Source: Alkalicoccobacillus plakortidis | GTDB lineage: Bacteria > Bacillota > Bacilli > Bacillales > Bacillaceae_D | Assembly (NCBI RefSeq): GCF_023703085.1 | Contig: NZ_JAMQJY010000002.1 | Coordinates: 434,001 to 498,000, forward strand | Reading direction: 5' to 3' | DNA: 64,000 bases | Shown: piece by piece, positions 851 to 63,173 of the stretch | How positions within the stretch are numbered: the stretch's first letter is position 1 | How the letters are laid out: each line of letters begins with the position of its first letter | The notes under the pieces: model-generated | Databases searched by the model: none | Seen by the model: the letters and a program-made list of their open reading frames with translations, nothing else | Told to the model about the DNA's origin: nothing | Translations under genes and position numbers: made by a program

Positions 851-3046
851 GGAATGGCTCCTTTCCAAGCCGTAACAATTTCTTCTTGAGATGCTTCTAG
901 AACAGCTTTTCCGTTCTCGTCACATACAACCAGTTGATTTTCATTTGTTACTTCTCCAACACAGTCAGCATCAACAATTGCTTCAAATGCACTGCGATTT
1001 TCTGGAGAAACAGTCACTACAAAACGAGATTGACTCTCTGCAAATAGGTTCACGACATCTCCTTCATGCTGAACACGAACACCTACAGTTCCTGATGTCA
1101 TGCCTTCCGCTAAGGCAACAGCAAGTCCACCTTCGGATACATCATGAGCAGACGCAACAAGTCCTGACTGAATCGCTTTTAAAAGTTGAGCCTGACGATT
1201 TTTCTCAAGTGATAAATCAAGTTCAGGTGCTTTACCAAAGATACGTCCTTCATGCAGCTTTTGTAGCTCACTTCCACTGAATTCAGGTTTTGTTTCCCCA
1301 AGCAAATACACTAGATCGCCTACTGATTTATAATCTTGGGTTGTAATATGGTCAATGTCTTCAATTAATCCAACCATACCGATTACAGGTGTTGGATAAA
1401 TCGCTCCACCGGATGTTTCATTATAAAGCGAGACGTTCCCGCCAATAACAGGTGTTTCAAGCGTACGGCATGCCTCACTCATTCCATCAGTAGATGTCTC
1501 AAGTTGCCAGAAGATTTCTGGTTTATCAGGACTTCCGTAGTTCAAACAATCCGTCACGCCTAGAGGTACCCCACCAGAAGCAACAATATTACGAGCTGCC
1601 TCAGCTACGGCAATCTTACCGCCAACTTCAGGATCTAGATAAAGATAGCGCGAGTTACAATCCGTAGTCATTGCAAGTGCTTTTCGTGTATCACGGATAC
1701 GAACAACAGCCGCATCAGAACCTGGAGAAACCACTGTATTGGTTTGTACCATGTAGTCATACTGGTCATAGACCCACTCTTTGCTTGCAATTGTTGGCTG
1801 AGCCAATAATTGAAGCAGTGTTTCTTTAGAGTTATCTATAGTAGGTACATATGCAGCCTGCTCTTGGAACTCTTTATAATAAGCCGGAACTGCTGATGGT
1901 TTGTGATATACAGGAGCTTCTTCAGCTAACGCATCCACCGGTACATCTGCTGCTAACCCACCGTTATGCATTAAACGAAGACGTTTGTCATCCGTTACAT
2001 AACCAACCTCAGCAGAAAGAAGTCCCCAACGGTCAACAATTTCTTTGATCTCTGCTTCTCTTCCTTTTTGTACAACAATCAGCATACGCTCTTGTGATTC
2101 GGACAACATCATTTCATAAGCTGTCATGCCTTTTTCACGTTGAGGTACCAAGTCTAGATTCATGACAATACCAGATCCGGCCTTACTTGCCATCTCTGCA
2201 GAAGACGAAGTTAAACCAGCAGCACCCATATCTTGGATCCCAACAAGCGCGTCACTTTGGATCAGTTCAAGGCACGCTTCAAGCAAAAGTTTCTCCATAA
2301 ATGGATCTCCAACTTGAACTGCCGGGCGTTTCTCTTCAGAGCTTTCACTTAGCTCTTCAGATGCAAAAGTTGCCCCATGAATTCCGTCGCGACCAGTGCT
2401 TGCGCCAACATACATCACCGTGTTGCCTACACCTTTTGCTTGTCCTTTTTGAATATCCTTATGATCAATTAAACCGACACACATCGCATTAACAAGCGGG
2501 TTGCCTTCATAACATGGGTCAAATTGCACTTCTCCACCCACAGTTGGAACACCAATACAGTTTCCGTATCCGGCAATTCAGCTACAACCTCTTCAAATAA
2601 ATAACGAACTTTTGGAGATGTTAATTCCCCAAAACGAAGTGAATTTAAGATGGAGATTGGTCGTGCTCCCATCGAGAACACATCACGCAAAATTCCGCCA
2701 ACTCCAGTTGCAGCACCTTGATAAGGCTCAATTGCTGATGGGTGGTTGTGACTTTCTATCTTAAATACAACAGCCTGGTCATCACCGATATCAATAATTC
2801 AGCACCTTCACCAGGACCTTGAAGAACCTTTTCACCAGTTACAGGGAACTTCTTCAAAAGCACTTTGGAATTCTTATAACTACAGTGTTCTGACCACATA
2901 ACTGAAAATAATCCTGTTTCTGTATAGTTAGGCGTACGCCCTAAAATCTCTTCAACAAGCTGGAATTCATCATCAGTTAAACCCATGGCCTGATACAGCT
3001 TTTCTTTTTTTACCTGTTCAGATGATGGTTCAACGAGTAGTGACAT
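835..3046 (-). CDS. purL: Phosphoribosylformylglycinamidine synthase II PurL (two frameshifts in this sequence)
   Basis: PurL is the synthetase subunit of the PurSQL complex, converting FGAR to FGAM with ATP and ammonia from PurQ. Three consecutive frames (from 3046, from about 2690, and down to 835) join into one protein of about 740 residues, the normal length of the small-type Bacillus PurL. Joins are near 2800, where the context should read GAGIIDIG, and near 2579, where VVAGIAGYGN is expected. In both places GCTGG appears as GCTG, one G short. Everything else is well conserved, including GTATAIHP-free typical blocks such as [19 protein letters not shown] and [10 protein letters not shown]. 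The start overlaps purQ by 17 bases. Because purL is needed for purine prototrophy and its neighbours are intact, I read the breaks as sequence errors rather than decay. Confidence 0.93.
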
Positions 3047-3713
3047 GAGAGTTCCTCCAGTTTTTTAGAATGGATTGAAATAATGCTAGTCCGTCTGCGC
3101 TGCCAAGAAGCTCTTCTACCGCACGCTCTGGGTGAGGCATCATACCAAGTACATTACCAGCTTCATTAACGATACCGGCAATTTGATTACGCGAGCCATT
3201 TACGTTCGAGCTATAACGGAACACGATTTGATTGTTCGCTTCAAGCTTTTGATACGTCTCATCATCACATTCATAGTTCCCTTCGCCATGAGCCACGGGA
3301 ACTGTGATTTCTGACCCTTCAACATATCCAGTTGTAAACATCGTTTCTGCATTTGCAACGGTTAACTGAACTGGACGGCAAATGAATTTTAAGCCTTCAT
3401 TACGCTTCATAGCCCCTGGTAGCAAGCCTGCTTCAAGTAGCACCTGGAATCCATTACAAACTCCAAGGACTGGTACACCAGCTTTAGCTGCTTCAATTAC
3501 TGCATTCATAATTGGTGCAAAACGAGCGATTGCACCTGAACGAAGATAATCTCCGTGAGAGAATCCTCCTGGAAGCAATATGCCGTCATACCCTTCAAGA
3601 GACGTGTCATTGTGCCACACGTAGTCTACCTCTTCGCCAAGCTGGTCGCGGATGGCATGGTACATATCCGCGTCACAGTTGGATCCTGGAAATACGATGA
3701 CCGCAAACTTCAT
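3030..3713 (-). CDS. purQ: Phosphoribosylformylglycinamidine synthase glutaminase subunit PurQ
   Basis: PurQ is the class I glutamine amidotransferase that feeds ammonia to PurL. The 227-residue protein has the typical length. It begins [17 protein letters not shown], carries the nucleophile cysteine in [11 protein letters not shown] (around residue 86), and ends with the catalytic His-Glu of [11 protein letters not shown]. The start overlaps the purS stop by 4 bases and its own stop overlaps the purL start, so purS-purQ-purL are translationally coupled, as expected for subunits of one complex. The gene contains intact CCAGC sites (for example 3157-3161), which matters for the frameshift pattern described in the findings. 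Confidence 0.97.
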
Positions 3714-3961
3714 GAAGAGACAACCTCCTCGATCTCATAGCTATAATCTTCAATGACCGTATTAGCAAGAAGTTTTTCGCACATTTCTTTCACTCGAGCA
3801 TCGACATTGCTTGTATCAGCTAATGTTAGCTCCATGTATTTTCCGATGCGAACATCCTGTACTTCCTTATATTCCATTGTATGAAGAGCATTTTGAACAG
3901 CCACTCCCTGTGGATCAAGAACACTTTCTCTTAGCGTTACGTAGACTTTAACTTTATACAT
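3710..3961 (-). CDS. purS: FGAM synthase small subunit PurS
   Basis: PurS is the small structural subunit that holds PurQ on PurL in Gram-positive bacteria. The product has 83 residues, the family's usual length, and begins [19 protein letters not shown] with the typical VQNALHTM and VRIGKYMEL segments. The ATG at 3961 shares one base with the purC stop codon (TAATG arrangement), and the stop overlaps the purQ start. Presence of PurS confirms the three-subunit form of FGAM synthase and fits the short PurL next door. Confidence 0.97.
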
Positions 3962-7155: not shown

Positions 7156-7645
7156 AATGTATCACTGCTCGCGAGTACGGCTTCTTCTGTTTTTTTACGT
7201 CGATTGAAAACCGCTTCTTGCACCACTTGATCGGTTGTTCCAATGATTTGTGCAGCAAGTAAACCTGCATTTGTTGCTCCAGCTTTGCCAATTGCAACAG
7301 TTGCCACTGGCACTCCACCAGGCATTTGCACAATAGATAATAAGGAATCTAATCCATTAAGTGCCTTAGACTGAACGGGTACGCCAATAACCGGAAGAGG
7401 TGTTTTTGCCGCAACCATTCCTGGCAAATGTGCTGCCCCACCTGCTCCAGGATAATGACCTTTAGTCCTTTTTCAACAGCTTCATCCGCATATTGAAACA
7501 TAAGGTCTGGTGTGCGATGTGCAGACACTACTTTTTTTTCATACGGTACCTCTAGCTCGTCCAAAATGTCACATGCGTGTTTCATTGTTTCCCAATCAGA
7601 TGTACTTCCCATGATTACGCCAACTACTGGCTCCATAACCATCAT
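7152..7645 (-). CDS. purE: N5-CAIR mutase PurE (one frameshift in this sequence)
   Basis: PurE moves the carboxylate of N5-CAIR to give CAIR. Two overlapping frames, 7645 to about 7450 and about 7450 to 7152, together give the full protein of about 164 residues. The first holds [16 protein letters not shown] and VVSAHRTPD, the substrate-binding part. The second continues with the GMVAAKT and [22 protein letters not shown] region. The expected join is [13 protein letters not shown]. At 7447-7450 the plus strand reads CCAGGATAAT where CCAGCGATAAT restores the frame, so one C is missing from a CCAGC. It is the first gene of the pur operon, with an AGGGAG ribosome binding site just upstream. ATG codons at 7645, 7642 and 7636 could all serve as start. 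Confidence 0.93.
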
Positions 7646-7706: not shown

Positions 7707-7790
7707 ACAATGAGAGAAAGATAGCTAATTCCGCGCTTTGACACACCTATTCCTATTAAAATACACGTAGGATTATAGCTGTGATACTTT

Positions 7791-7864: not shown

Positions 7865-7893
7865 ATTTCGTTTTTTATCGACAATCCACATTA

Positions 7894-18372: not shown

Positions 18373-18410
18373 ACATACACATTACCATCAAGAATTGTTC
18401 CTTGTGACAG

Positions 18411-20933: not shown

Positions 20934-22474
20934 TTATTCCCACTCAATTGTGCTTGGTGGCTTACTCGTCACATCATACACTACGCGGTTTACGTGATTT
21001 ACTTCATTAACAATTCGAGTTGAGATGAGCTCTAACACATCCCAAGGGATACGTGCCCAATCACTTGTCATACCGTCAATTGATGTAACAGCACGAATTC
21101 CAACTGTATAATCGTACGTTCTTGCATCTCCCATTACTCCTACACTTCTCATGTTTGGTAGGGCAGTGAAGTATTGCCAGATTTCGCGGTCGAGTCCTGC
21201 TTTTTTGATTTCTTCACGAAGAATATAATCAGATTCACGTACAATTTCAAGCTTCTCGTCTGTGATTTCGCCTAGTACACGAATTCCAAGGCCTGGTCCA
21301 GGGAATGGCTGTCTCCAAACAATTTCATCTGGAATACCAAGTTCTGTTCCAACTTTACGAACCTCGTCTTTGAATAACGCTTTTAGTGGTTCAATCAATT
21401 CAAAACGCATGTCTTCTGGAAGTCCGCCAACATTGTGGTGAGACTTAATGGTTTGAGCAGTATCTGTCCCACTTTCAATGATATCTGTATACAACGTACC
21501 TTGAGCTAGGAAATCCATGTCTTTGAGTTCAGTTGTTTCTTCATCAAACACATAGATAAATTCGTTCCCGATAATCTTACGCTTTTGTTCTGGGTCAGAA
21601 ACTCCTTGTAGCTTAGTTAAGAAACGTTCAGCAGCATCAATCTTAATGACGTTCATGTTAAAGCCTTCACTGAAGGTTTCCATTACACTCTCTGCTTCGC
21701 CTTTACGTAGAAGGCCGTGATCAATAAACATACACGTTAGTTGATCTCCAATTGCTTGATGCAGAAGGACAGCAACAACAGATGAATCTACTCCGCCACT
21801 AAGCGCACAAAGAACATGTTTGTCGCCAACTTGCGCACGGATTTTTTCCGTTTCTACTTCAATGAAGTTCTCCATCGACCATTCGCCTTTAGCTTTACAC
21901 ACTTCAAAGGTGAAGTTCTTTAGTAGCTCATCGCCAAAGTCTGAGTGGCGCACTTCAGGGTGGAATTGTACTCCGTATAATTTTTGAGATTCGTTACTCA
22001 TCGCAGCAACTGGACATGATGGATTAGATGCATCCACAACAAAACCTTCAGGTGGGGCAACAATTTTATCACCATGGCTCATCCATACAATTGTTCAATA
22101 GGAAGTCCTTTAAATACCTCAGATTGATTTTGAACGTTAATTAATGCTTTACCATATTCACGGTGTGAAGCAGCTTCAACAGATCCACCAAAGTGCTGGG
22201 TCATTAGCTGCATGCCATAACAAATCCCTAAAATTGGAACATCAAGATCATAAATCGCTGGATCACAATGAGGAGATCCCTCTTTGTATGCACTATTTGG
22301 TCCACCAGAGAAGATGATACCCACTGGATTCAGTTTCTTTATTTCTTCAGCTGTAATTTTGTGTGAATGAAGCTCACTGTACACACCAAAATCACGGATA
22401 CGTCTTGTAATCAGCTGATTATATTGTCCTCCAAAGTCGAGAACAACAATCATTTCTTGATCAAATTCAGTCAT
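20934..22474 (-). CDS. guaA: GMP synthase GuaA (one frameshift in this sequence)
   Basis: GuaA aminates XMP to GMP using glutamine. The frame from the ATG at 22474 carries the amidotransferase domain with the cysteine in [12 protein letters not shown]. It runs into a stop just after LPIEQL; a second frame continues at [13 protein letters not shown] with [11 protein letters not shown], the ATP-pyrophosphatase loop LSGGVDSS and the usual C-terminal KPPSTIEWE. Joined they give about 513 residues, full length. The break lies near 22087, where one G is missing after CAATTG, so LVWMSHGD is expected. This is the only frameshift in the window not on a CCAGC/GCTGG pentamer. AAAGGATGG precedes the start. 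Confidence 0.94.
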
Positions 22475-22687: not shown

Positions 22688-24879
22688 TCAAGGTTTGATT
22701 TTCCTTACAATTCGCTCCCAGTTGTGCTTTTGTTCGTTCCATACGATAGATGATGGGTTTTCACTATATAATGTGCGCTCGTAAGCATGTGTTAATACCC
22801 TCATATCGTCAGAATTCAATTCTCGGTCAATGCGGTTCGCATACTCACGTAATGTTTCAGTCGTGTCTCTTTTGTATCCATTTATCTTTAATATCCATAA
22901 CAGCCTTTTAAAAGCCTGTTCAAAGACTTGATCATCTTCTTTTGATAGATAGTATTTTAACACGAGTAGCGTTAAAATCGATTTTCGATAAAAGAACAGA
23001 ATCCCAGCGAATAGTAACAACACAATGGCAGTTACCCAGTAACCTACGTATGATGAATTGTCCGTCTGATTGTCTAAAGCTGAAGGTTGATCGATCTCAT
23101 CCTCTTCTGGCTCAACTTCAACTTCTTCATCCTCTTCTGATTCATCTTCTGAGTCTGTTTCCGTATCAGGGGCTTCAAATGGATCAGCTTCATTATCAAT
23201 TTCCTGCTCAAATTCATACGTATTAGAAAAGCCTTTTGTTGGTTCAAAGGCCACCCATCCCTCACCTGGGAAATAGACTTCAACCCATGAATGTGCATTT
23301 GAATTTGATACCGTGTATACATTTACGTCTTCATTTGAATCAACTAGTGTACCAGGTGTAAAACCTTTTACCCATCTAGCCGGAATGTCCAAAGTTCGAA
23401 GGAGAACAATCATAGAGGTTGAGAAGTTGTCACAATACCCTCTTTGCGTTTCAAATAAAAACTGATCGACGTAATCTTCTCCTTGCTGAGGAACAGGCAC
23501 ATCTTCTGTTTCATACGTAAATTCTGGGCCAAGCAAAATGATCTTCAATTGCCTTAGCCTGATCATAGCGATTCCCTGCATCTTCAGTCAATTCAGCCGC
23601 AAGCTCAAACACCCTTTCCGGAACTGTATCCGGGAGTTGTGTATAGTATTCAACGACTTCATCAGGATCATTCCCACTCACATTCTTTAGTCCATCAATG
23701 TTGTAGCTTGTATCAACGAATTCAAAGCTATACTGCTCAAGGGAGAGAGGGTCATCACCAGACCGTATTTCTGCTCTTGCTGTATATTCGTCTAAAACAA
23801 TAGGATCGCTATTGTTCTCATTAATCATCGATGAATATAGCTCTCCAGGGTAAAATAAATGGGGAAATCGGATTTGATTATACATTTGTACACCGGCTTC
23901 ACGAACCTCTCGTTCAGCGGCATTAGTGGAGTCTACTGGTTCGTCCATTAACGTATTTTCATTAAAGCTTTCTGGTGTGGTATTCTGCAAGCCAACTCCA
24001 CTATAAAAATCCTTTGTCTCACCTCTCCAGTACATTCCACGCTCAATTGAACCCAAAAATACTGGCGTATCATCGTCGAGGAAGCCTCCACCAAGCTGCT
24101 CGTCGTTATCTCCATACCCGATTCGCTGAGTACCTGATTGATTGGAGAGATCACCTGTTACTGCTGATTGCAAAAAAGGAACAGGGTCTTCCCATTGCGG
24201 ACCCGGCTTCGGCGCAAGAGTTCCTACTATTCCTGTCAGCAACAACGCTCCAGTAATAACGATACTCATTCGTATGGGAAGATATCGTGGAACCTTGGAA
24301 AAGTGATGAGCTTCAAGAGTTCGATACATGGTAATCAAGCCAAGTAATAAAAATCCGATTCCAAAAATTCGAATAATCGCAAACGTGGCATCATATAGCG
24401 TAAATGTATCAATGACTGCGACATAGACAACAGTAAAAAACAGAAAGAAGAATATTCTTCTTAAATGAACAGTCCAATAAAATAATAGAAAACTCATGAT
24501 TGATAATAAAACTAAAAAGAGAAAACTTCGAAAAACATCTGATAATTCATACCAATTTCCAGTTAGAATTCGCCAACCATTTGAAGTAAGATCTGAGAGA
24601 AATAATGTCATCCATTCAAATGGGGAAACGCCTCCAAGCTTGGAATAAAAAATAGAGACCACCAAGAATAATGACAACTCTAGTTAAGAAGCTAATTAAT
24701 AGTGGAATTTGCAAAAATGACACCAAAAAGAAGAGTACTGTGGCTACCAAAAATCCACTTATATATCCTGTATCTGTCATCATAGGCAGGGGTAATAACC
24801 ACTCTAATAACAAGAAAAAGCTTAGACCATACAGCAGTCCATCCCTACTATAATGCAGACTTTTTTTCTTCCACTTCAA
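22688..24879 (-). CDS. yebA: Transglutaminase-like membrane protein YebA (two frameshifts in this sequence)
   Basis: Three frames join into one protein of about 730 residues: several N-terminal membrane helices (about residues 10-230), an extracellular transglutaminase-like domain, an acidic linker (EDESEEDEEVEVEPEEDE), a last helix and a cytoplasmic C-terminal domain. The cysteine-protease-like core is GYCDNFSTSMIVLLRTLDIPARWVKGF, with the histidine in NAHSWVEVYFPGEGWVAFEPT. Joins are near 24636 (FQAGGVSPFEW) and 23531 (HFAGPEFTYETED). At both the sequence shows GCTTGG where GCTGG restores the frame. A TTG start at 24879 follows GGGGGGAG. Together with yeaC and yeaD it forms a conserved trio of unproven function. 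The same order ends at guaA in B. subtilis. Confidence 0.88.
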
Positions 24880-27172: not shown

Positions 27173-27700
27173 TTAATCCAATCCCAAGCTCGTTTGGTCC
27201 TGCGTATACGTTTCACCCATTTCATTAGCAAACTGTTTAAAAGCTGCCTCGAAATCTAGTGATTCTTTTTCTGGTAGCTTTGCTTTTCGCTCTGCTACTA
27301 GTTCTTCAAGTTCAGGTGCTCTTGGACCCCATTTCATTACTTCATTGCCATCTTGATCAATGACTACAATAATCGGAATCGAGCGAGCTGTTCCATTTGT
27401 TAAGTATTGATCCATCAATTCTAGATGATCATCTCGTATGAAATAGCGTGTTTCAATTAATGCTTCATCTGCAATTCGCATAAAAATAGGCAGGTTCACC
27501 ATTGCATCTCCACACCAATCAGCTGTAATGATTAGCGCTCTATACTTTTTAGGCTGAAGTGATTGCAGTGATTCTTTCTCAAAAGGATCTAAATGAAAAG
27601 AATTATATATCTTTAATAAATTCTCTTGTTTCACTTGCATTGAATGGATATATGCATAACGACTTAAGCCTTTTTCAAACCATTGATTTAAATCTTCCAA
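27173..27700 (-). CDS. Thioredoxin-like family protein with a single-cysteine WCGD active site
   Basis: The 175-residue cytoplasmic protein has a thioredoxin-fold core: YRALIITADWCGDAMVNLPIFMRIADE around residues 60-86, the cis-proline in ARSIPIIVVIDQDGNEVMKWGPRAPELEEL, and a charged C-terminal tail. The motif is WCGD, with one cysteine rather than CxxC, as in the Thioredoxin_9 family common in Bacilli, so it probably is not a simple disulfide reductase. The N-terminal 55 residues (MEDLNQWFEKGLSRY) are helical and typical of the family. Partner unknown. Confidence 0.8.
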   Translation of the reverse strand: MEDLNQWFEKGLSRYAYIHSMQVKQENLLKIYNSFHLDPFEKESLQSLQPKKYRALIITADWCGDAMVNLPIFMRIADEALIETRYFIRDDHLELMDQYLTNGTARSIPIIVVIDQDGNEVMKWGPRAPELEELVAERKAKLPEKESLDFEAAFKQFANEMGETYTQDQTSLGLD

Positions 27701-36190: not shown

Positions 36191-38232
36191 CTAACGGAGA
36201 TTTGATTCAAGGATTGTCGCAACTTTGTCGACAACATAACCGCTACCACCTTTATCACTCACGTCGTCAATCATCATGACAACAAGTAATTCAGGATCAT
36301 CATCCGCGTCAACAGCAACAAACCAACCATGCTCTTTTCCTTTTTCTTCTCTTGTCGCTTTTAATTCAGCAGTTCCCGTTTTTCCTGCAATTCGAACGCC
36401 ATCAACTGCAGCCGCTCTGGCTGTACCTTTGGGATCCTCAAGCACGTCAACTAAATCTTGCTTGGAGCAGGTCTGCATGTTCTTGAGACATGACCGCTTC
36501 TTTCCAAATTCCTGACTCACCATCAAGCTCAAGAACAGGCTGAATCATATTACCTTGATTCACAATTGTTGTGTAGGCTAACCCAAGGTGAAGCGGGTTC
36601 ATTAAGATTTCACCTTGACCATAGCCACTATCTGCAAGCTGAATATCATTACGCATACCTTCATCACCAGTCAGAGATGATGTATGAAAGATAGCTGGTA
36701 ATGGCAACTCTTCACCAAAGCCAAAATCTTCAGCACCACTACTAAATGCGTCTTCGCCCAAATTAAGAGCTTGCTCGGCAAAATAAATATTATCCGAATA
36801 GACCAGGGCTTTACGCAGATCTACCGGTTCCTCGTAATCATGTACACGTGTCACTTCATAGCCGCCCCAATCTGATCCCTCAGGCTGCCAGCTTTTGCCT
36901 TGTACGTCTAGTGTTTCACTTGGATCAAGTGTACCCGCTTCAAGACCAATAGCCGCTGTAAGCAACTTAAAGGTTGATCCTGGGGAATACGTTTGTACAA
37001 ATCGATTTAATAATGGATTATCTTCTGTTTCCATATCTTCACGTTGTCTGGATGTAAATCCAACCGCCGCTAGATTCGGGTCATAGGAAGGCTGACTAAC
37101 TAAAGCCAAAACTTGTCCATTCGTTGGATGAATAGCCGTAGCTGTACCAGCATCGTCTCCAATCTCGTCAAAAATCTCTTGTTGCAAATCCATATTAATC
37201 GTAAGTGTTATGTCTTCACCATCTTCAGGCTCTGTCTCAAGAATGGTCTCTTCTATCTCATCATCAGCATTTTTTGTATATAAAGTTCCTCCACTTTCCC
37301 CACGAAGTCGGTCTTCATAAGCTCGTTCAAGTCCAGTCTGTCCAAGCTTGTCATTTGGGCCATAGCCTTTATCCTTATATTCTTCTAGCTTTTCTGCTGT
37401 AATATCTCGCAAATACCCGGTTAGATGTGCTGCAACTTCCCCATATGGATACTCGCGGCCATCAACCTCTTTATAACTCGCTCCTGGAATCTGCCTTAAT
37501 TCTTCCTCTGCCCAATCAATTTCTGAAGCTTGGGGCAAAATGAATCGGAACAAATACTTCATCGGTTACCCATGACTGATCTAGTCTTGATTCAATTGTT
37601 TCCCGAGAGACACCAGTAAGGTCAGAGAACTCAGTGACAAAGTCTTCTCTATCCTCAATTTCACCTGGCACACTGCCGATTTCAAGTACCTTTCCATTTA
37701 CAGCTAACCCATTCCCCTCTCGGTCAAAGATCTCACCTCTTGTAGGAGCATTGGGACTAACACGAAATCCCCCACCCTCGGGTAACGATGGGTACACTAA
37801 TGTATCTTGCCACGCGATAGCCCAGCTATCACCCTCTTCTTGCTCTTCTAGATTCAAGGAGATATCCTGCTCAAAATCTACACTGCCAAGAGGAGTTGAG
37901 ACTGCCACATTTAAAGGAACTGTAAACACATTTTCCTCCGCCTCATTATTGTCCTCTTCTCCATCTGTTGGATAAACCGCTTCAATCTGCATTTCACTTG
38001 CCTGCATCTCATCGTATAAATCAGTCATACGCTCTATATATGCTTCTTCTGATTGATTCTCTTTTGATTGTTCATCTAACATCGAATACATTTCTTGATA
38101 ATTTTGATTAGACCAGCTATCAATGAATGCATCAAGTGTTTCTTTAGGATCCGGTTCTTCGCCGAAACAGCCTGTTAAAAGCAGACTTGTTAAGAGACCG
38201 GTCAATACGATTCCCTTTTTTGTGTACTGCAT
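36191..38232 (-). CDS. Class B penicillin-binding transpeptidase lipoprotein with MecA-N domain (two frameshifts in this sequence)
   Basis: Three frames join into about 680 residues resembling B. subtilis PbpC (PBP3) and PBP2a. A lipoprotein signal (TSLLLTGCFG) precedes an NTF2-like MecA_N domain (about 25-150), then the PBP dimer domain (PTRGEIFDREGNGLAVNG) and the transpeptidase. The latter has the SxxK motif in YSPGSTFKLLTAA, SxN in VYSDNIYFAEQ and KTG in GKTGTAELKATRE. Joins are near 37530 (IHFAPASEIDW) and 36462 (LLQQDLVDVL). Both read GCTTGG on the plus strand, that is CCAAGC on the coding strand, where CCAGC restores the frame. All active-site motifs are intact, so a working enzyme is likely. 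Confidence 0.9.
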
Positions 38233-40064: not shown

Positions 40065-41811
40065 ATGTTCCGTGTATTTAGTCAATTATCATGGTTTTTC
40101 AAAGAACAATGGAGACGTTATACTGTCGCTATCTTTCTACTCATTATTGTCAGCTTCATCGACTTGATGCAGCAAGGCTACTCGGTTTGATTGTAGATGA
40201 TTTTCAAATTGGATCATTAACATTAAACAAGGGTCTTGGCTATATTGGTATTTTTCTACTCATTACCGTTTCTAGTTATGGCTTAACGTATATTTGGATG
40301 TCAAAATTATTTGGCGGTGCCCTGTTAGTTGAGAGGAAACTGCGATCACGTTTTATGGGTCACCTTTTACGTATGGATGTTCCATTCTTTGAAAAAAGAA
40401 AAACTGGAGATCTAATGGCTCAAGGGACAAACGACCTAAAAGCAGTTAGTATGACAGCAGGATTTGGTGTTTTAACATTAGTTGATTCGATTGTTTTTAT
40501 GTTAATCATCCTTGGTGCGATGATTATTCTCGTAGATTGGAAGCTCACATTGGCTGCCGTGCTTCCGTTGCCTCTAATCGGCATTATGATTTCTATTTTA
40601 GGTATCAAAATACACGCTAGGTTCACAAAAGCACAAGAAGCGTTTGGTTCACTAAATGGACGTGTGCTTGAATCAGTAGCTGGCATGCGTGTGATTCGTG
40701 CATTCCGTAGAGAACGTCACGATGAAAACAAATTCTTAAACATGAGCGAAGATGTTTATAAACGAAATCTTGAAGTAGCAAAAATTGAATCTTTATTTGA
40801 GCCAGTGGTCAATATTGTGGTCGCACTCAGTTATGTGATTGGACTTGGTTATGGTTCCTATCTCGTTTTTGCTCAAACGATCACCCTAGGTCAACTGATT
40901 ACGTTTAATGTGTATCTAGGAATGATGATCTGGCCAATGTTTGCCATTGGAGAGCTGATTAACATTATGCAACGTGGATCCGCTTCCCTTCAGCGTGTTA
41001 ACCAAACATTAGCTGTTGATCAAGCAGTTCAAGATCCAAAAAATCCAGTTGCAGCAAATCACGAGGCAAATGTAACTTTTAATAACGTAACTTTCAGCTA
41101 TCCATCATCAGATCTAAACAGCTCCAGGATCTCTCGCTTGATATTCTTTCCGGTGAAACGATCGGTATTGTTGGAAAAACTGGTAGTGGAAAGTCAACAT
41201 TTATTAAACAGCTCCTTAAATTCTATCCATCAGGCAAAGGTAGTTTAGATGTTGGAGGTCATTCGGTTGATGAGCAAAGCAAATTACACGTTCGCTCTAA
41301 AATTGGTTATGTACCTCAGGACCATATTCTTTTTTCAAAAACAGTCCGAGAAAATATCCTCTTTGGTAAACCAAATGCTACTGAGCACGAATTAAATGAA
41401 GCCATTCGAATCTCTGCCTTTGACCAGGATTTAGCGTTTTTACCTGATGGTCTTAATACATTGGTCGGGGAAAACGGCGTATCCTTGTCAGGTGGTCAGA
41501 AGCAACGAATTTCGATTGCCCGTGCCCTTATCGCAGCGCCACCGATTTTGATCTTGGATGATTCCCTTTCGGCTGTTGATGCCAAAACAGAGGCGAAGAT
41601 TGTTGGACATTTACGTGAGGTACGTAAAGGCTTAACAACCATCATTACGGCTCATCGAATGTCAGCCGTTGAACAAGCAGATCAGATCATTGTATTAGAA
41701 GATGGCGAAAAAGCAGAACTAGGTACTCACCAAGAGTTGATGGATCAGCGTGGTTGGTACTTTAAACAAGTAGAGCAACAAACTAGAGGAATGGAACAGG
41801 AGGTGCGCTAA
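40065..41811 (+). CDS. bmrC: ABC multidrug exporter half-transporter BmrC/YheI-like (two frameshifts in this sequence)
   Basis: The ATG at 40065 (MFRVFSQLSWFFKEQ) opens a protein of about 582 residues once two breaks are repaired. It comprises a six-helix exporter domain, then a nucleotide-binding domain with Walker A GIVGKTGSGKST, Q-loop GYVPQDHILF, signature SLSGGQKQR, Walker B ILILDDSLSAVD (an Asp where many exporters have Glu) and the H-loop histidine in TAHRMSAVE. Breaks are near 40170 (true IDLMPARLLG) and 41119 (true DLNQLQDLSLDIL). In both, CAGC stands where CCAGC restores the frame. The stop overlaps bmrD by one base. The Walker B Asp replacing the catalytic glutamate is typical of the degenerate half of heterodimeric exporters. 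Confidence 0.9.
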
Positions 41812-43817: not shown

Positions 43818-43841
43818 TAGGTTTAAAGGGAGGAATTTTTC

Positions 43842-44274
43842 TTGAGGATAAGACCCTTAATGAAACAAGATCCACCAAAGATGCAAAACCTTATGGAGCA
43901 GCTTGGTTATCCAAGCTACAGAAGGTGAATTAATCAGTAGATTTAACTCACTAGATAAGCATGCTGATTACCATACACTCATTGTCGAACTGGATGATCA
44001 ATTAGTTGGGTTCGCCGGTCTTCATCGAGGACTTTTTTATGAAAACAATGGTTCCTATATTCGAATTGTGGCGTTTGTCATTGATGAACAGCAACGTAGA
44101 AAAGGCATAGGAAAAAAACTCATCGAAGCAATTGAAGAGTGGGCACGCAGCCAACAAATTACCACTCTTGTGTTAAACAGTGGTAACCGCAAAGAACGAG
44201 TTGCCGCACACGCTTTTTATGAACAGATGGGGTTTACAGCAAAGAGTACAGGATTTAGCAAACGATTAAGTTAA
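43842..44274 (+). CDS. GNAT N-acetyltransferase (one frameshift in this sequence)
   Basis: GGGAGG, eight bases upstream, marks a TTG start at 43842, giving MRIRPLMKQDPPKMQNLMEQLGYP. The frame then breaks near 43913, where CCAAGC stands for CCAGC; with repair it continues ATEGELISRFNSL to the end, about 143 residues. Acetyl-CoA binding elements are VAFVIDEQQRRKGIGKKLIEAIEEWAR and the C-terminal HAFYEQMGFTAKSTGFSK. The arrangement matches the common small GNAT type. The substrate is unknown. It follows bmrD by 24 bases and may belong to that operon. Confidence 0.87.
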
Positions 44275-44576: not shown

Positions 44577-45571
44577 TCACTTGTCCAAAGCTTCTTTTAA
44601 CCAATCGACAAACAGACGACCATTAATCGTGTGTCCTCCCTGGAAAATATCTGACTTAAAGTGATCCATCGCACCCTGCTTCTGATACTCTGCCTCCAGC
44701 TGGCTAACGGCTTCCTCTACACCCTCTATCGGAAACACACGATCTTCGTTTCCAGCTTCAATAAACAGTTTTCTCGGAGCAATTAATCGAAGAATATCAG
44801 GTTGTTCTCCAATAGAGAGGATATCTGGGATATAATTGTCCACACAATGATTTCGATCTAATATACTATGTTTAAAAGTATTGGCAAATCCGGTAAGTAC
44901 GGTTGCCTGGACACGTGAATCTAGTGCTGCAACAAGTCCTGCAATAAGACCACCACCAGAAAATCCAACTAGCCCAACCTTCTCTTGTCTTACATCTGAA
45001 AATGTAGACATGATATCAACTAATCGTCTTGCCTCATACACTCTCATTCCTGCTATGGTCGATCCCGACATAAGGAAAGCCGCAGCTAACGAAAAGCATG
45101 AGCTTGAATTGTCTTCTTGTTTATCTTTAGAAAGTCTTCTATCACCAAAACCAAGAATTTCAGGAACAAATACCTTTAAACCCTTTTTGACCAATTGAAC
45201 AGCAAGCTGTTGATGAATACCCGGCTCTCCTTCGTCCCCCTCCGTACCATCCTTATTCAGTCCTACAAGCTCCCGACTTCCATATCCATGTCCATGTAGC
45301 GCGAGGACGCTAGAGAAGCTATGTACAGTCGTATGAGGAGTCAGTACATAAAATGGTACACTCAGGCCTTCACTTGCCTGAAAGATAAAACGTTCGCGTG
45401 TGTACCCTATACATTCTTTTGTTTCCGTCTTATGTAAATCAGGATCTATACTTGGTGCTGAAGGTGCCCGAGTTTTTCCTCTAGCAGAATTCTTGCATCA
45501 TTTGGACTACGCAATGTTTGTTGTTTGCTTTGTTCATATAGCTTTTCTAGAAAAAGATCAGGCTCTATCAT
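44577..45571 (-). CDS. Alpha/beta hydrolase, acetyl-xylan-esterase-like (one frameshift in this sequence)
   Basis: ATG at 45571 after AAAGGAGC opens MIEPDLFLEKLYEQSKQQ. The frame breaks near 45460, where GCTGA on the plus strand stands for GCTGGA (a CCAGC that lost one C), and resumes as PSIDPDLHKTETKECIGYT. The product is about 331 residues. An oxyanion region ALHGHGYGSREL, the nucleophile elbow GLVGFSGGGLIAG and a late DRVFPIEGVEEAV plus QGGHTINGR supply Ser, Asp and His. The fold suggests the Abhydrolase_7/AXE1-like group. It starts 14 bases after the GH10 xylanase gene, so a role in deacetylating xylan fragments is likely but inferred. Confidence 0.82.
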
Positions 45572-48176: not shown

Positions 48177-50779
48177 AAGCAAATTCTGGTTACTTTTATT
48201 TATAAGTCTTGCCTTTGCCTTTCTTGCGCACTTTTTCTTCTTAAAGGAGTTAACGAATGGCCGCTATATGGTTGGACCTAATGATGGTCTTTCTCAAATG
48301 CTGCCATTCAAACATTTTCTTTACCAGCAATATACAAGTGGACAGTGGTTCTATTCACATGATTTTGGACTTGGCAGTGGCACGTTTGCCCAGCTAGCTT
48401 ATTACTTCTCCACAAACATGGTGTTTCTTGTAACCGTGTTTTTTGTTTGGTTGATGGAGACACTTTCAATCATAGGCTCACCTGATTTATTATTCTGGGC
48501 TCAAGCCGGCGTATTTGTCAGTGTATTCCGCATGACTGTGATTGTTATGATTACAACCGCTGTTTTTCGTTATTTTAAGCTCGGATTTTTCCCATCATTT
48601 GCTTGGAGCCGTCCTTTATGCTAGCAGTGTCATGTATTTCCGCCACGCAGCCTTTTGGGAGTTCTTTGCAGATGCCTATCTATGGATTCCTCTGCTTGTA
48701 CTTGGAATTGAAAAAATCATTCGAGAAAAGCAACCACTTTGGCTCATTATTGCACTAAGTCTATCTATGTTTAATAACTTTTATTTTGCCTATATGAGCT
48801 GCTTGTTTGTTGCCATTTATGTATTGCTTAGATGGTGTATTCGTTTTAAAGAAGACAAAGCATCCATCTTGGAACAAATTAAATTATACATACCTGCTAT
48901 CATTCTAAGTTTTGCTATTGGAGCGATTTCCTTTATCCCTGCTGTGTATGGATTTCTGAATAACTATCGCCCTCCATTTGAGGATCCAATTGACTTCTTA
49001 GACCTTAGAGACAATATCTTATTCACAAGTCGGACACTCATTTTACCAGCACTTTTTATTTCATTTCTGTTTGTTAAAAGCTTGTATAAAAATAAGGTTT
49101 TTCGTTTTTTTGCAGTTCTGTCGCTGCTCTATATCATATTGCACTTTATCCCACTTGCAGCGAGTGTATTTAACGGCTTTTCTGCACCGCAGAACCGGTT
49201 TGAATATATGGGGTCCTTTGCGATTGGCGGAGCAACCGCCGTTGCACTAACAAAGCTTTCCGAGATATCAAGGAAACAAATGCTGATTTCAGCTGCACTT
49301 ACAGCTATTCTGTTTCTTATTGTGTATTTAACTGATCGTTCACTTGAATTAAGTAACCTAGGAATAACAGAGCTCTTAATTGTTCTCCCAATTATGCTTC
49401 TGGCTTTTCTATGGGTTGGTCTGCGGCGTCCTGACTATGGGATGGGGTTGCTTACTATATCAGTGGTAGCTACACAGCTACTGGTCTCCTATAACTATCA
49501 AGACCAACAGTTATCACAAGATGGGAACCTTACCAATTCAAATGAACAGTATATTATTGAAAACTATCAACCGCCTGAACAGACAGAATTAATTCATTCT
49601 GTTCTTGAACAAGATGAGGACCCCTTAGCCAGATTAGAGTGGGTGATCGGTGGCAGAAGCGGACGCAATAATACGGGAATGGTTCAAGACTTCCCTAGTA
49701 TTAGTAGTTATTCAAGTGTGCTTAATCAACATCTTCTATTCTTTTATTACGAAGATCTGCAGATTGATATGAAGCGAGAAAGCGTCAGTCGTTATTCTGG
49801 TTTTGGTGATCGAACGAATTTGTATAGTTTACTAGGTGGCAAGTACATTCTTTTCCCGAAAGATGAAAAGATACATGCTCCTTATGGGTTTGAACCTTTT
49901 GAAGAAAATGAGAGTTATATCATCTATCGTAACGAAAATATGCTACCATTTGCGCGCACTACTTCAACTGTATACAGTGAAGAGCAATTAGAAGAGCTTC
50001 CTCCATTAACAAGAGAACATGCTATGCTTGATGGAGTCATACTAGATGATGCTGATCCTACTATGCAATCTGAGGTACCAGATCCAGCAGAGAACTTTAT
50101 CAATGATGTTGATATTGAAGCAGTAGGAGGCAACTATGAAAATGGGATTCTCACCATTACTGATGATCGAGGCGGTCTCGACTTACAGATCCCTTCAGAT
50201 GAAGCAGATGGAAACGGTGATCTTTATGTAGCCTTTCATCTTCTTAATCAATCAGAAAGTGCTAAACTCTTTAGACTTGATGTTAATGATTTTACGACAG
50301 ATCGTAAATCACTCGAATCGATTTACCGAACGGGCATTAATGATTTAACCATCCGTGTGCCTAAGGAAGAAACGATTTCGATTCGCATGAGAAAGGGAAG
50401 CTATCAAATTGATGACTTTTCTATATACAGTGAGAACTATGACACATTAAATCAAGCAATTGAAACATCCAACACAGAAGACGTACCTGTAAGCATCGAC
50501 GGGAGAAAAATGTCCTTTTCGGTGGAAGATGCAACTGATATTGAATACCTTAGTATTCCAGTTCCTTATGAAAAAGGCTGGACAGTAAAAGTGAATGGCG
50601 AGACAAAACCTATCGAAAAAGCGAATTACTCTTTTATGGCTGTAGCATTGGAAAATGGAGAGAATCAAATCGAATTCTCGTACCTACCTCCGTTTTTCAA
50701 AGAATCCGCAGCAGCTACAATTGCTGGTCTGCTGCTAACAGGGATATGGCTTACTTTAAGAAAAAGACGTTCTCGATAA
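48166..50779 (+). CDS. yfhO: YfhO-family GT-C membrane glycosyltransferase (one frameshift in this sequence)
   Basis: About 870 residues: twelve or more helices, then an extracytoplasmic beta-rich C-terminal part and one last helix (AAATIAGLLLTGIWLTL) with a basic tail. Family features include GPNDGLSQMLPFKHFLYQQY near the start and the late VPYEKGWTVKVNGE and FSYLPPFF segments. YfhO is the GT-C enzyme that transfers the flipped sugar to the polymer outside the membrane. The break near 48603 reads GCTTGG where GCTGG gives FAGAVLYASS. ATG at 48166 (MKRKSKFW) overlaps the gtcA-like stop. A strong terminator follows. Confidence 0.9.
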
Positions 50780-53414: not shown

Positions 53415-54677
53415 TTATTTCTTCGGTAATAATGGCAAAGTCGTTCGAGCAATACCACTTAAGCCTAGAATGGTCAAAAATACTCTCTGCGGTCCAAGAT
53501 GTGCGTCCGTTGGATCAAACCACTCATCAAGAGAATGAGCTCCGCCTGCTTGTCCCCCTGCTCCAAGTGTAATTGCAGGCACACCAATGCTGATTGGATA
53601 ATTTGCATCCGTACTAATCGCTTCTTCTAATGTTGGCAAAAGTCCAAGCTGTGTAGTAGCTGCCCATGCTGTTTGAACAATTTCTGCATCATCAGCTTGT
53701 GTTCCAACAGGACGATCTCCCAATTTTTTTATGTCTACACGTATTCCATTTTCACCGAATTGTCCCCAAGCGCTGATTCTCATCTTCTGCAGCCTGCTGA
53801 AAGATAACTTGAACTCGACTATCAATCTCATCCAAGCTCTTTTTTACCATTTGAGCGTATATCTAGGTATAATTTTGCTTGTTCAGCGATGGCGGTGGGA
53901 ATCGTTCCTCCCTCCACAACTCCTACATTAAACGTTGTTTTAGGATTAGTTGTCGTTTCAAGGTCTGCAATGAGTGAAATTGCACGCCCAAGCCGCATGA
54001 ACAGCACTCGGTGTGCCAAACGCTCCAAAGCTGTGACCTCCTGATCCTGTATATGTAATTTCATAACGGTAGCTACCTGTGCCTTTATAGACAATGGCAC
54101 TTGGAGACACTGCATCAATTGAGATAAAGCCATCTACTTCTTGATTCTCTTTAAAAAACGCCTTGACGCCTCTTAAATCACCAGGACCCTCTTCTCCTAC
54201 TGTGCCTCCAAAGATGATATCTGCCTCTGGTTTGATTCCAGTATGCTTAAACGCCCGAACAATGGACAATAGCGCAGCTAAACCTCTTGCATCATCTGTA
54301 ATACCCGCCCCAAAATAAATGCCGTCCTTTTCAGTCACTGTTACATCCGTATCAATTGAAAACACGCTATCAATGTGCGCACTCACAAACAATGCTGGAC
54401 TAGAACGCTCTCCTTTTAGAATGCCATATACATTTCCTTCTGCATCTTGTTTTACCTCTTCTAAACCAAGCTCTTCTAACTTCTTCTTATAAGCTAGTGC
54501 CCGGTTTGTTTCTGCAAATGGTGGTGCACTAATCTCAGCAAGCTCAATTTGTTCCTTTAAGGTTTGAGCTTGATCCGCTTCCAAAAATTCTAAGCCTTTT
54601 TTCACATCTTGATGATCATGTAGATGAGAGAATACCGTCTCGATCTCTTTGTCTAATTTGTATGATGCTTCTGACAT
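53415..54677 (-). CDS. M20-family aminopeptidase (PepT/YqjE-like), three frameshifts in this sequence
   Basis: Four frame pieces join into one protein of about 420 residues. The co-catalytic metal site is complete: FVSAHIDSVF, FGAGITDDARGLAALLSI, GGTVGEEGPGDLRGVKAFF (catalytic Glu and metal Glu), SIDAVSP, and GGAHSLDEWFD for the last histidine. The dimerisation domain begins YRYEITYTGSGGHSFGAF. Breaks are near 53990 (HAAGRAISLIADL), 53834 (KKELDEIDSRV) and 53768 (ENQRWGQFGENG); each shows CCAAGC on the plus strand where CCAGC restores frame. GGAGG eight bases before the ATG at 54677 (MSEASYKLDKE) fixes the start; the longer frame to 54758 is not used. Confidence 0.88.
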
Positions 54678-59046: not shown

Positions 59047-61952
59047 TTAGCTTTTAAGATTTTCTTTACGTCTCCGTTGATAGAAATACAACACAACTCC
59101 AAGGATTAATAATGTTAATCCCGTAGCTAGATAGCCAACTATTTCTGTTGCTGTTTTAGGAAGCATACCACCAAATTTTGAAGAATTAGATTTAGTGTCA
59201 TCTATCTTATTGTTTGAATGATCTAGTTTGTTGGTACCATCCGTTGAATTCTTTTTTGGTTCAGATGTATCCTTTGGTTCTTCTCCTCCTGGTTGTTCTC
59301 CTGGTGGATTGGTTGGTTCTTCTCCTCCTGGCTGTTCTCCTGGTGGATTGGTTGGTTCTTCCCCTCCTGGCTGTTCTCCTGGTGGATTGGTTGGTTCTTC
59401 CCCTCCTGGCTGTTCTCCTGGTGGATTGGTCGGCTCCTCTCCTCCTGGCTGTTCTCCTGGTGGTTCTGTCGGTCCCTCTCCTCCTGGCTGTTCTCCCGGT
59501 GGATCTGTCGGTTCCTCTCCTCCTGGCTGTTCTCCTGGTGGATTGGTTGGTTCTCCTCCTCCTGGCTGCTCTCCTGGTGGATCTGTCGGTTCCTCTCCTC
59601 CTGGTGGATTGGTTGGTTCTTCTTCAATAGGCTCAAATGCTTGGTCGGAAAAAGCTCCAAGCATTATATAACTTGTTATAATTCTCGTGATCCTTTACTG
59701 TTTGTGCATAGTATTGTAACGATAGATCTGCAAATTCCTGTTGATACGTGTCTCGATCCATTAATGTATAGGCCTGCTGCGCAAATTCAGTATTACCGAT
59801 TGAGTTGGCAGCTCTAATATGTGCATAAGCTGATGCCTTGGCGCTATAAAAGAGAAATGAATCAAAGTCTTCTCCATTTCTGAATGAAGATTGATCAAAT
59901 TCATCCTTATAAGCTGAGCGCTCTTTGACTAAAAAGGAATGTTGATCCGTTAATAAGGTGCCCCAGTGAATATCTGGATAATTATGTAGGGCAGACATAC
60001 CAGCAATTGTGCGATCAGAATGGGTCGCATAAGCTGGTGTTTTTCCTACTCCTGCTCTGTCCACTGCAGAAGGAAGTTGCGACTTCACATCTAAAATAAT
60101 ATCATCTTGTTGGCCAGATGTTGCCCCTTCAATTAGGACATAAAATCTTTCGGTTCCAAGACTGCCTAACCCTGCATCTGTTCGTCTAGCAATATCCTTC
60201 ACCTCAAAATATTCTGCTCCAACTTCATTCAGAATTTCTGCGTTAATTCCACTTACATAGGTCTGCCAACTACCTAACAATTCCTTTCTTTCTTCATCAC
60301 TCACTTCGGCTAATCGAGCGTTAGAAGGGTCAAGTCGTCTTTCTCCTTCAACCATCTGTGTCCATCTTCCAAGCTCAGAAAATGGATCAATGGATGCTAT
60401 ACCTGCGGCTGTATCTCCAACAAATCCCGATAATTGGTCAGCTGTAAATCTATACTCATCGACATTTATTTCTTGATCGATGACTTCTTTTAAAGCGTCT
60501 TTGTAATAGGTGCTGTAAGAATCTAGTGCTTCATTCATACTCTCATGATCATATTGGAGAGCTTGGTGCTACATCATTTAACAAATAAAGACTTGTACCA
60601 AACCTTAACAAGTCGTAGTAATAAGGAGCTACAGCTACTTCATCAAAATCATTAAAATCAAAAATAGCCTCTTTCTTTCCATTTCCATAAAACCCTATGT
60701 TCTCAATATGTAAATCACCGGTAATCCATGTATCTAATGAAGACGTAATTGACCACTCATTTGGAACAATTAAACCATCGCCGACATCCTCAAAAAACAA
60801 ATGCGCAGTTCCTCGATAGAAAGAAAAAGGACTTGCCTGAAGTAAGGCTAATTTGGTGTTACGTACGTCTTGATCCTGGATATAGCGGTTATTTTCAATT
60901 AATCGTTTGGTCAATGTCGCTAAACGTAACTCTCCATCTTTTACATCCAAGTCAGACAAATCTTTTGAATCATCTTTTGGAATGACAAAATCAACATCCT
61001 CAATCAGATCATAGTACGAAGATACTGGCGAGAAGTCCGTCAACCCTGGATTATCACGTAGATTCAATCGCACAGTTAAAAATTGATGATTCCTTAATGC
61101 TTCAATCGATGTAATTTGGTTATCTCTAAGGTTTAGATCATTTAATAATGGTAAATTAGCTAGAACTGAAATATCTGAGATTTGATTTCGTCTCATTGTG
61201 ATTACTTCAAGCTTTGTTAAATGAGTTAATGCACTAAGATCAGAAATTTCATTCGTATGGATATTTAATTCAGTAAGCTCTGTTAATCCTCGAATTGGTT
61301 CAAGGTCATTGACCGCGTTCTCTCTAAGGTTTAATTCTTTTAATTGAATAAAATTAGATACCACTTCAATAGAAGATAAACCATTCTCACGAACATCAAA
61401 TTTCTCTAATTGATGAAGAGTATGTAATGGGCTTAAATCCTTTACGCTATTAGTACGTAAACTAAGTTTCTTTAAATTTGTAAGCTTAGAAAGGCTTGTC
61501 ACATCTGTGATTTGATTTGCTTCTAGTTTCAAATCTTCAAGCTGAGTCAGTTCTTGTAACGGGCTTAAGTCATGTACTTGGTTATTGGTTAGATCTAATT
61601 CAACGATATTAATAGCATGTTCTAGTCCTGATAGATTGCGAATTCCTCTTTCCTTTGCACCACTTAGCTCTGTGAGACTTGCCAGCGCTTCCTTTGTTAG
61701 TTGATCAAAACCATTTGATTGTACATTTTCGAAAAGCACCTCTTCTAACTTTTCATCTGCAATTGCTAGGACTTCACTTTCTTTTAATTCTTTCTCTTGT
61801 ACCTCACTTTCTTCACTCTCATTAATCTCTTCCATCTGTTCTTGTTCAACCTCATCAATCTCTTCCACTTGTTCTGCAAATGAAGTAGGTGAATACATCA
61901 CTGAAGTGAACAAGGATCCAGCAAGCAATACATGTAGTTGTTTCTTATTCAT
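59047..61952 (-). CDS. Sortase-anchored surface protein: LRR domain plus DUF2252 domain plus Pro/Gly repeats (two frameshifts in this sequence)
   Basis: Three frames join into one protein of about 967 residues. In order: signal peptide (to TSFAEQ); an acidic segment (about 27-62); about ten internalin-type leucine-rich repeats (about 85-310, units such as LTQLEDLKLEANQITDVTSL); a DUF2252 domain (about 320-770) with ASPFSFYRGTAHLFFED, WITGDLHIENIGFY and AIFDFNDFDEVAVAPYYYDLLR; eight 13-residue Pro/Gly repeats; and LPKTA, a hydrophobic helix and QRRRKENLKS, a sortase signal. Joins are near 60563 (VAPALQYDHES) and 59659 (YNAGAFSDQ); both show an extra base in CCAGC. AGGAGGGG precedes the ATG. 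DUF2252 is usually intracellular, so this exported, wall-anchored form is unusual. Confidence 0.88.
59283..59620 (-). repeat. 39 bp coding tandem repeat (13-residue units EEPTNPPGEQPGG)
   Basis: Eight full units of 13 residues and one short unit encode the wall-spanning stalk of the surface protein. Variants are EEPTDPPGEQPGG, GEPTNPPGEQPGG and EGPTEPPGEQPGG; the four units nearest the C-terminus are identical at protein level, a sign of recent unit duplication. Open frames on both strands here are products of the repeat. Confidence 0.92.
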
Positions 61953-62048: not shown

Positions 62049-62086
62049 AAAAAGAAAAACCCTTTGCACTATGCTACGCAAAGGGT
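62049..62086 (-). terminator. Intrinsic terminator after the Gfo/Idh/MocA gene
   Basis: CCCTTTGC and GCAAAGGG form the stem with a 10-base loop; the minus strand continues TTTTTCTTTTT. It follows the stop at 62095. Confidence 0.88.
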
Positions 62087-62094
62087 AATAATTG

Positions 62095-63173
62095 TTACTC
62101 TGGTAAAATAATTTCCACTTCTCTTCCGGCTTCTGAGGAACGAAGAATACCATCTATGATTGCTTGATTGTACAAAATTTCATGTGCTGGTATAGGAGCT
62201 GGTCTTTCTTCTTTAATTGCTAGCACAAAGTCTCTTACCTTCTCATAAAAGATATCTACATTATGTTGCGTAACCGGTATCGTTGTATCTGCATTTTTCC
62301 AGCTACATCATGATAAAGACTAATTGACCCGATGCCTCCATCCCATACCCCGCTATAAGGACCCGATCCTGCTGGAGTAAGTTTTAATCCTCCTTGCGTT
62401 CCTAAAAACACTGTTGGTCCAAGTGAGTCCATATGCATCGCCCACGAAATCTTAAAGTTTAAAACCTTATTACCCTCTAATCGAATTAAGGCTGTACCAA
62501 AATCCTCTACTTCAAAACGATCAAATTCTGGATGATACAGTTCATTGCGACCAAAATGGTTTGAAGTAAATGCTGAAACAGTTAGTGGTTTCGGGTATCC
62601 TAATGAATTAAGTGCCAGGTCTAATGAATAACAACCAATATCCGCCATAGCTCCAGCACCTGCTAGTGCCTTATTTATAAAGGTTCCGGCTGGCATGCCA
62701 CGTCTTCTTCCGCCACCAAGCTGCACATAATAAACATCTCCAAGCTGACCAGATTGAACGATTTCTTTTACTGTTTTCATGTTCGGGTCATATCTAGGTT
62801 GGAAACCTACAGTAAGCATTTTATCTGCTAATCGTGCTTCTTCAACCATCTGAACACCCTGATCAAGAGTGATAGCTAAGGGCTTCTCTACTAATACATG
62901 CTTACCTGCACGCGAAGAGTCAATGCTCGTTTGATGGTGAGCGATATTCGGGGTACAAATGCTTACACCGTCTAAATCTAGCTCAAGCAGTTTTTTATGA
63001 TCTTCAAATGCTTGCGTATGTGTTAAACCAAGCTTTTCTATAAACTCAGCTGCTTTTCCCGGAACAAGGTCCGCTACCGCAACCACCTCTACATCTTCCA
63101 TACGCTGATATGCACGTGCGTGCGCCTGCGCTATACCCCCACTACCAATTATGCCTATTCTTATCTGACTCAT
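62095..63173 (-). CDS. Gfo/Idh/MocA-family NAD(P)-dependent oxidoreductase (one frameshift in this sequence)
   Basis: About 359 residues. The N-terminal Rossmann fold has RIGIIGSGGIAQAHARAYQRM, followed by the family motif VLVEKPLAITLDQG and GFQPRYDPNMKTVKEIVQSGQLG. The expected C-terminus continues VAGKNADTTIPVTQHN to EVEIILPE in another frame; one base is missing next to GCTGG at about 62299 (a CCCAGC that lost a C would explain it). These enzymes oxidise or reduce sugars, inositols or their derivatives; the substrate is open. The ATG at 63173 (MSQIRIG) is better placed after AGGAG than the ATG at 63179. A cre-like site upstream fits carbon catabolism. Confidence 0.9.

Follow-up and report, generated by a model that had tools for sequence, protein, structure and literature searches.

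Motif-specific consensus errors are an artefact of a known kind, and for the non-palindromic pentamer CCAGC/GCTGG we found relevance to nanopore reads in two reports (PMC10687267, PMC5093776). In Listeria monocytogenes isolate R20-0026 (ST1081), every native R9.4 nanopore error had GCTGG (CCAGC) at its centre; with whole-genome-amplified DNA the mismatches dropped from 5670 to 16, insertions and deletions (indels) were said not to be the source, and the account given of the motif leaves its writer open (PMC10687267). Dcm motifs, which are short, methylated and were missing from caller training, held about 70% of consensus errors in Klebsiella pneumoniae with the nanopore callers then current (PMC6591954), and miscalls can strike only some occurrences of a methylated motif (PMC12392509). 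Here we describe broken genes in a 64,000-nucleotide stretch of Alkalicoccobacillus plakortidis DNA (G000:C2:434001-498000, hereafter the window), part of a 4.37 Mb genome of nine contigs (G000), together with a candidate writer, a tandem pair of cytosine-5 (C5) methyltransferase genes on another contig. We are close to certain that the frameshifts at CCAGC/GCTGG in this genome are errors of the assembly consensus and not mutations.

The errors in G000 resemble those of the Listeria isolate in the pentamer and in their large number, but the two organisms belong to different bacterial families and indels dominate the coding-gene errors of G000. They resemble Dcm errors in that one short motif dominates, whereas the Dcm site CCWGG is palindromic and the density of CCAGG is unchanged in G000 (ratio of 0.98 to the related genome G003); the partial pattern of miscalls recurs in G000. 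The candidate enzymes invite comparison with LlaJI of Lactococcus, which has two 5-methylcytosine methyltransferases together with McrB-like and PD-(D/E)XK subunits and the asymmetric 5-bp target GACGC (PMC1459862). What the present case adds is the host, the indel form and the candidate enzyme pair, whose link to the errors is hypothetical.

Frame breaks in the window and two further regions

Three same-genus genomes (G001, G002 and G003) served as references; their purL fragments are 94–95% identical to that of G000, for which Halalkalibacter okhensis (81% identity) is the nearest named record among the matches listed. An earlier note, made from the sequence of the window, had listed 19 gene-breaking frameshifts, all but one of them on CCAGC/GCTGG. 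With a frameshift-tolerant DNA-to-protein aligner run against the relatives' open frames (37, 41 and 37 reference genes from G001, G002 and G003), 18 of the 19 were recovered (Table 1), 16 of them by the first scan and those at 7450 and 45460 with the relatives' unpruned frames; 59659 and 60563 were recovered with G002 and G003 only. The remaining place, 62299, has no homologue in the matching stretches of the three relatives and stands outside the counts that follow. A damaged motif is found at or beside 17 of the 18 recovered breaks; the one at 41119 is placed on it with G002 only and 7–9 bases before it with G001 and G003. The guaA gene, which the note had set apart as off the motif, has a real frame change at 22089 without the motif, possibly an ordinary consensus error. 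All eleven sites said to have an extra A/T bore this out, as did six of the seven said to be one base short; the list had missed two frame changes, one on a GCTTGG at 27188, seen with three relatives, and one on a T5 run at 43838, seen with two of the three. The window contains 92 copies of CCAGC+GCTGG and 52 of CCAAGC+GCTTGG, and the copies at 3157, 4376, 6598 and 7279 are all intact CCAGC, as had been stated.

For a wider scan, G003 was used as the reference for G000 C1:500001-900000, the whole of contig C5 and the window, which together comprised 424 kb of aligned genes on three contigs. From 136 raw events we removed 23 stop events and three in which one flank had fewer than 7 identical residues out of 15. 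The 110 supported frameshifts that remained affect 87 of 460 genes (C1 region, 63 in 299 reference genes; C5, 29 in 124; window, 18 in 37). The reverse control, with G000 frames run on G003, yielded nine events in nine of 507 genes (5, 4 and 0, respectively). Three of these nine were centred on intact GCTGG/CCAGC, as expected if they mirror errors of G000 itself.

The expanded form CCAAGC/GCTTGG was present in 76 of the 110 frameshift contexts, where 1.53 were expected, and in 75 with a tighter context (1.2% of random positions). Among the other 35 frameshifts, ten carried CAGC/GCTG (10.2% of random positions), seven intact CCAGC/GCTGG (1.9%) and one CCAG/CTGG, while five lay at homopolymers of at least five bases and twelve had none of these features; the shorter motif remnants are enriched in this group, and any single one may be chance. 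Over all 110 frameshifts, such homopolymers show no clear excess (8% of random positions). In a frame-independent nucleotide comparison of 385 of the 460 genes, which left out genes below 75% identity or above 1500 residues and counted only sites with well-matched flanks, CCAGC headed the ranking of 491 pentamers, with indels at 36 of its 357 sites (the median over pentamers was 0.55%). The indel count that the earlier note had proposed, run here over three regions, thus revealed strong enrichment. The pentamers ranked 2–4 overlap CCAGC, whereas CCTGC/GCAGG in fifth place (10 of 324) has no overlap with it; perhaps its high rank arises from sites that frequently read CCAGC in G000. Compared with the corresponding stretches in G003, G000 has 25% fewer copies of CCAGC and 29% more of CCAAGC; for 11 further words the ratio stayed within 0.90–1.05. 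The effect is partial, as the note had held, with 76 sites broken in the expanded form and 507 intact in the aligned genes. An A after the motif protects (11 of 76 broken vs 211 of 507 intact sites), a C before it favours damage (19 of 76 vs 55 of 507), and the expanded motif lies on the strand opposite to the gene in 55 cases and on the same strand in 21.

Essential genes and ribosomal RNA copies

Three relatives have a whole polC gene, which in G000 is split. Other genes of G000 have a break that carries CCAAGC/GCTTGG: those of ribosomal proteins S12, S7, S19, S9, L5 and L7/L12, of SecY, of FtsH and of a ClpC-like ATPase, all named from their intact G003 copies. The break in disA lies off the motif, and rpoB is whole. 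The polC gene and the genes of these proteins cannot all have been lost, and the apparently broken genes on the motif are almost certainly intact in the living cell.

We compared the eight 16S and seven full 23S ribosomal RNA (rRNA) copies of G000 among themselves, excluding a two-piece 23S on contig C8. All six copy-to-copy indel columns fall on GCTGG/CCAGC, as do all four variable columns of the 23S and six of the twelve of the 16S. At the 16S GAACGCTGGCGG place four of eight copies are altered, by one insertion and three substitutions; unlike the coding genes, the 16S copies thus carry substitutions at the motif. GTGCCAGCAGC and the 3' GGCTGGATC string are altered only in the C8 copy, which is the most divergent, stands on a contig that looks poor and was given less weight. 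In the G003 controls, the eight 16S copies are without indels, and the only difference among the eight 23S copies is a single T-run column. That the assembly places rRNA operons at multiple positions on several contigs suggests long reads. The operon at G000:C8:63564-68312 has the 16S with the most mismatches of the eight, and its 23S was found only as two pieces.

True mutation, at a slippage-prone or phase-variable motif as the earlier note had allowed or through wholesale pseudogenisation, would suit a single motif that takes two forms (one base more or one less) at only some of its copies. It would, however, leave the polC, S12, S7, L5, SecY and FtsH genes all broken and would have to extend to the 16S and 23S copies, which carry the same indels, and the scan of same-genus G003 gave so few events. 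Repeated true mutation at conserved rRNA places is not credible. With essential genes and rRNA hit, and damage not confined to dispensable or switchable genes, we rejected pseudogenisation and phase variation, in agreement with the note on the former and contradicting its alternative on the latter, and regard mutation as extremely improbable. Programmed translational recoding at CCAAGC/GCTTGG, with the frame restored by the ribosome, would be in keeping with the good conservation of affected genes on both sides of the break. It is excluded because the motif indels also lie in rRNA genes and rRNA is not translated; the motif further occurs in both orientations, with both gain and loss, and GCTTGG/CCAAGC stands three times inside the open methyltransferase genes described below without a frame change. 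We therefore rejected recoding, whose probability is negligible. The note's proposal of a systematic consensus error is upheld by damage in all three sampled regions on three contigs, by the essential genes hit and by rRNA-copy indels found only at the motif.

A candidate methyltransferase pair

The cytosine-5 methylase family has four matches in G000, two of which form a tandem pair (M1 and M2; Table 1) with catalytic PC and ENV strings that are readable by eye in the translations. The methyltransferase search suggested by the earlier note was thus productive as to a candidate, whose CCAGC specificity is proposed from the error motif only. An asymmetric word such as CCAGC/GCTGG would need two tandem methyltransferases. 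The pair lies in a defence island with an HNH protein upstream and a 232-amino-acid (aa) protein, an AAA protein and a PD-(D/E)XK protein downstream. The 494-aa protein matches AAA families below the Pfam cut-offs only and PADLOC PDC-M26A with an E value of 5.2e-46, and the 602-aa protein matches PF09823 and PF04411 (PD-(D/E)XK) above the cut-offs; neither of these restriction-like proteins matched a solved structure by sequence search. The layout departs from that of LlaJI in the HNH gene upstream and in what separates the methyltransferases from the restriction-like genes, namely the 232-aa gene and some 1.3 kb in which a broken ATPase-like remnant lies. This remnant (L181:7100-7800, between the methyltransferases and the 232-aa gene) resembles, by eye, a transposon helper ATPase. 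The stretch upstream of the methyltransferases contains no CCAGC/GCTGG, so that LlaJI-style self-regulation is not suggested.

Including G000, M1 was found in three of 41 family genomes (E ≤ 1e-60; the other two at 52% and 42% identity) and M2 in seven of 397 order genomes (E ≤ 1e-150). M1 adjoins M2 in all six other genomes, in one of them as a single open frame of 790 aa (G231, L207:8438-10810). All five genes of the island are present in one of the six and an HNH-domain relative in another, and in G070 the 232-aa, AAA and nuclease genes likewise follow the pair. The phage collection held two records for M2 (E ≤ 1e-60) and the plasmid collection three for M1 (E ≤ 1e-80), and on one Lactococcus plasmid a similar tandem pair accompanies a different nuclease. 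Among the best 120 relatives of M1 or M2, no name states a target.

Table 1. Frame changes and other features of the window (window positions), and the methyltransferase locus (positions on contig C1 of G000).
Feature	Coordinates	Strand	State at the break or content	Support
purL, frame change	2574..2583	-	damaged GCTGG, one base short	15/15 identical residues each side, three relatives
purL, second frame change	2795..2804	-	damaged GCTGG, one base short	aligner
purE, frame change	7445..7454	-	damaged GCTGG, one base short	three relatives, unpruned frames
guaA, frame change	22085..22093	-	off motif	three relatives, gene 96% identical
Transglutaminase-like protein gene, frame change	23527..23536	-	GCTTGG	aligner
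Same gene as 23531, frame change	24632..24641	-	GCTTGG	aligner
Thioredoxin-like gene, frame change near its end	27183..27192	-	GCTTGG	three relatives
Penicillin-binding-protein (transpeptidase) gene, frame change	36457..36466	-	CCAAGC	aligner
Same gene as 36462, frame change	37526..37535	-	CCAAGC	aligner
ABC transporter gene, frame change	40166..40175	+	damaged CCAGC, one base short	aligner
Same ABC transporter gene, frame change	41112..41123	+	on/next to damaged CCAGC, one base short	aligner
GNAT acetyltransferase gene, frame change	43910..43918	+	CCAAGC	aligner
Frame change	45453..45465	-	on/next to damaged CCAGC, one base short	three relatives, unpruned frames
YfhO-family membrane protein gene, frame change	48599..48608	+	GCTTGG	aligner
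M28/M20 peptidase-like gene, frame change	53763..53772	-	GCTTGG	aligner
Same peptidase-like gene, frame change	53832..53841	-	GCTTGG	aligner
Same peptidase-like gene, frame change	53987..53995	-	GCTTGG	aligner
LRR + DUF2252 gene, frame change	59655..59664	-	GCTTGG	G002, G003
Same LRR + DUF2252 gene, frame change	60559..60568	-	CCAAGC	G002, G003
GFO/IDH/MocA oxidoreductase gene, break unconfirmed	62290..62305	-	intact CCAGC beside T5 run	
Two purine riboswitch aptamers	7777-7878; 18396-18495	-		Rfam RF00167
Tandem C5 methyltransferases, adjacent	G000:C1:2594500-2595666 (388 aa); 2593245-2594489 (414 aa)	same strand		PF00145, 236.5 and 185.5 bits
Defence island	G000:C1:2587875-2597107 (L181:2875-12107)		HNH, C5 pair, 232-aa, AAA, DUF2357/PD-(D/E)XK proteins	

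Cause of the errors and consequences

In the explanation that we propose, the bacterium would modify CCAGC on one or both strands, and native DNA would have been read on a long-read device, most likely nanopore, with a caller untrained on the mark, such that many reads would share the same extra or missing base at these sites. The wrong call would enter the consensus at about one site in 8–10, in a neighbour-dependent manner of which the protective A after the motif is the visible pattern, and coding genes then look split, as they do here. The mark is perhaps 5-methylcytosine, written by the tandem methyltransferases of the LlaJI-like island. Taken as a whole (consensus error, modified CCAGC, nanopore reads, candidate writer), this explanation is in our judgement quite likely, and modification of CCAGC is the probable cause of the errors; we infer this cause and the nanopore origin of the reads with the backing of the published precedent for the same pentamer. 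That the tandem pair writes the CCAGC mark has somewhat less than an even chance, and the idea that a LlaJI-like C5 pair recognises CCAGC/GCTGG and leaves its footprint in a public assembly is tentative. To our knowledge, this specificity would be new for the LlaJI-like architecture.

Several observations weigh against this explanation. No motif remnant accompanies 17 of the 35 frameshifts that lack the expanded form; coding-site substitutions at CCAGC are not raised (rank 395 of 491 pentamers, 385 genes), although natural divergence may hide an excess; and the published Listeria errors are mismatches, whereas those in the coding genes of G000 are mostly indels. As to the writer, G000 has the two further C5 methyltransferase matches beside the tandem pair, in settings that look prophage-like by their neighbours (by eye), and both enzymes are of very common kinds, with at least 7457 protein database relatives for M1 and at least 5901 for M2 (E ≤ 1e-60). 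G154 and G371, in which the pair is 73–76% identical, were free of frameshifts over 93 and 84 genes, a result whose weight depends on their sequencing platform and polishing and because of which linking the pair to the errors by co-occurrence led nowhere. For early Escherichia coli MinION reads, both template and complement, GCTGG and CCAGC belong to the under-represented 5-mers given in Table 5 of PMC5093776; GCTGG, for example, stands at 0.279 per 100 bp in the reference and 0.148 in template reads. Because this under-calling shows a caller weakness without a known mark, we lowered modification as the cause from highly probable to probable, and the odds of the writer a little. Finally, CCAGC is also the N6-adenine target of a type III enzyme, ModD1 (M.Nme579I) of Neisseria meningitidis, which methylates CC(m6A)GC (PMC13248616).

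A bias of the basecaller or polisher at this k-mer, without DNA modification, would agree with the MinION table, with the strong hold of neighbouring bases over which sites fail and with the two pair-bearing genomes that lack such errors. That table, however, describes raw E. coli reads in which several other words suffer at least equally, and does not concern a consensus confined to errors at a single word. Its ranking uses absolute differences and so gives an advantage to words that are frequent in E. coli; poly-A/T and CGCCA are listed beside the pentamer, whereas in G000 one word stands far above all pentamers. The published errors at the same pentamer, moreover, vanished on amplification (PMC10687267), and we consider bias by itself unlikely. 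Also to be weighed, as a variant of the modification explanation, is a mark of N6-methyladenine at CC(A)GC, made by a type III or type IIG enzyme and not by the tandem pair, for which ModD1 offers a precedent and to which the extra base, an A adjoining that adenine, would be suited. The Pfam family of ModD1 has no match in G000: N6_N4_Mtase gave zero matches there and matched 11 of 14 control genomes, Eco57I gave two matches, both below the cut-off, and N6_Mtase one of 39 bits in a 363-aa frame, although such an enzyme could have escaped detection if its own gene were split by the errors. A type III Mod enzyme was rejected as the writer on the zero N6_N4_Mtase matches in the genome, and an adenine mark appears rather improbable.

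If CCAGC modification is the cause, as we prefer to read the data, the damage identifies the word that is likely modified and directs attention to a methyltransferase pair that can be tested. For this species-level reference genome, about one gene in five of those tested (87/460) appears broken, mostly falsely, and pseudogene counts, auxotrophy predictions (purL, purE) and marker-gene work on the assembly would mislead. Should the pair indeed recognise CCAGC, its relatives could be the writer of the Listeria GCTGG mark, and consensus-error footprints could serve to assign methyltransferase specificities from assemblies alone.

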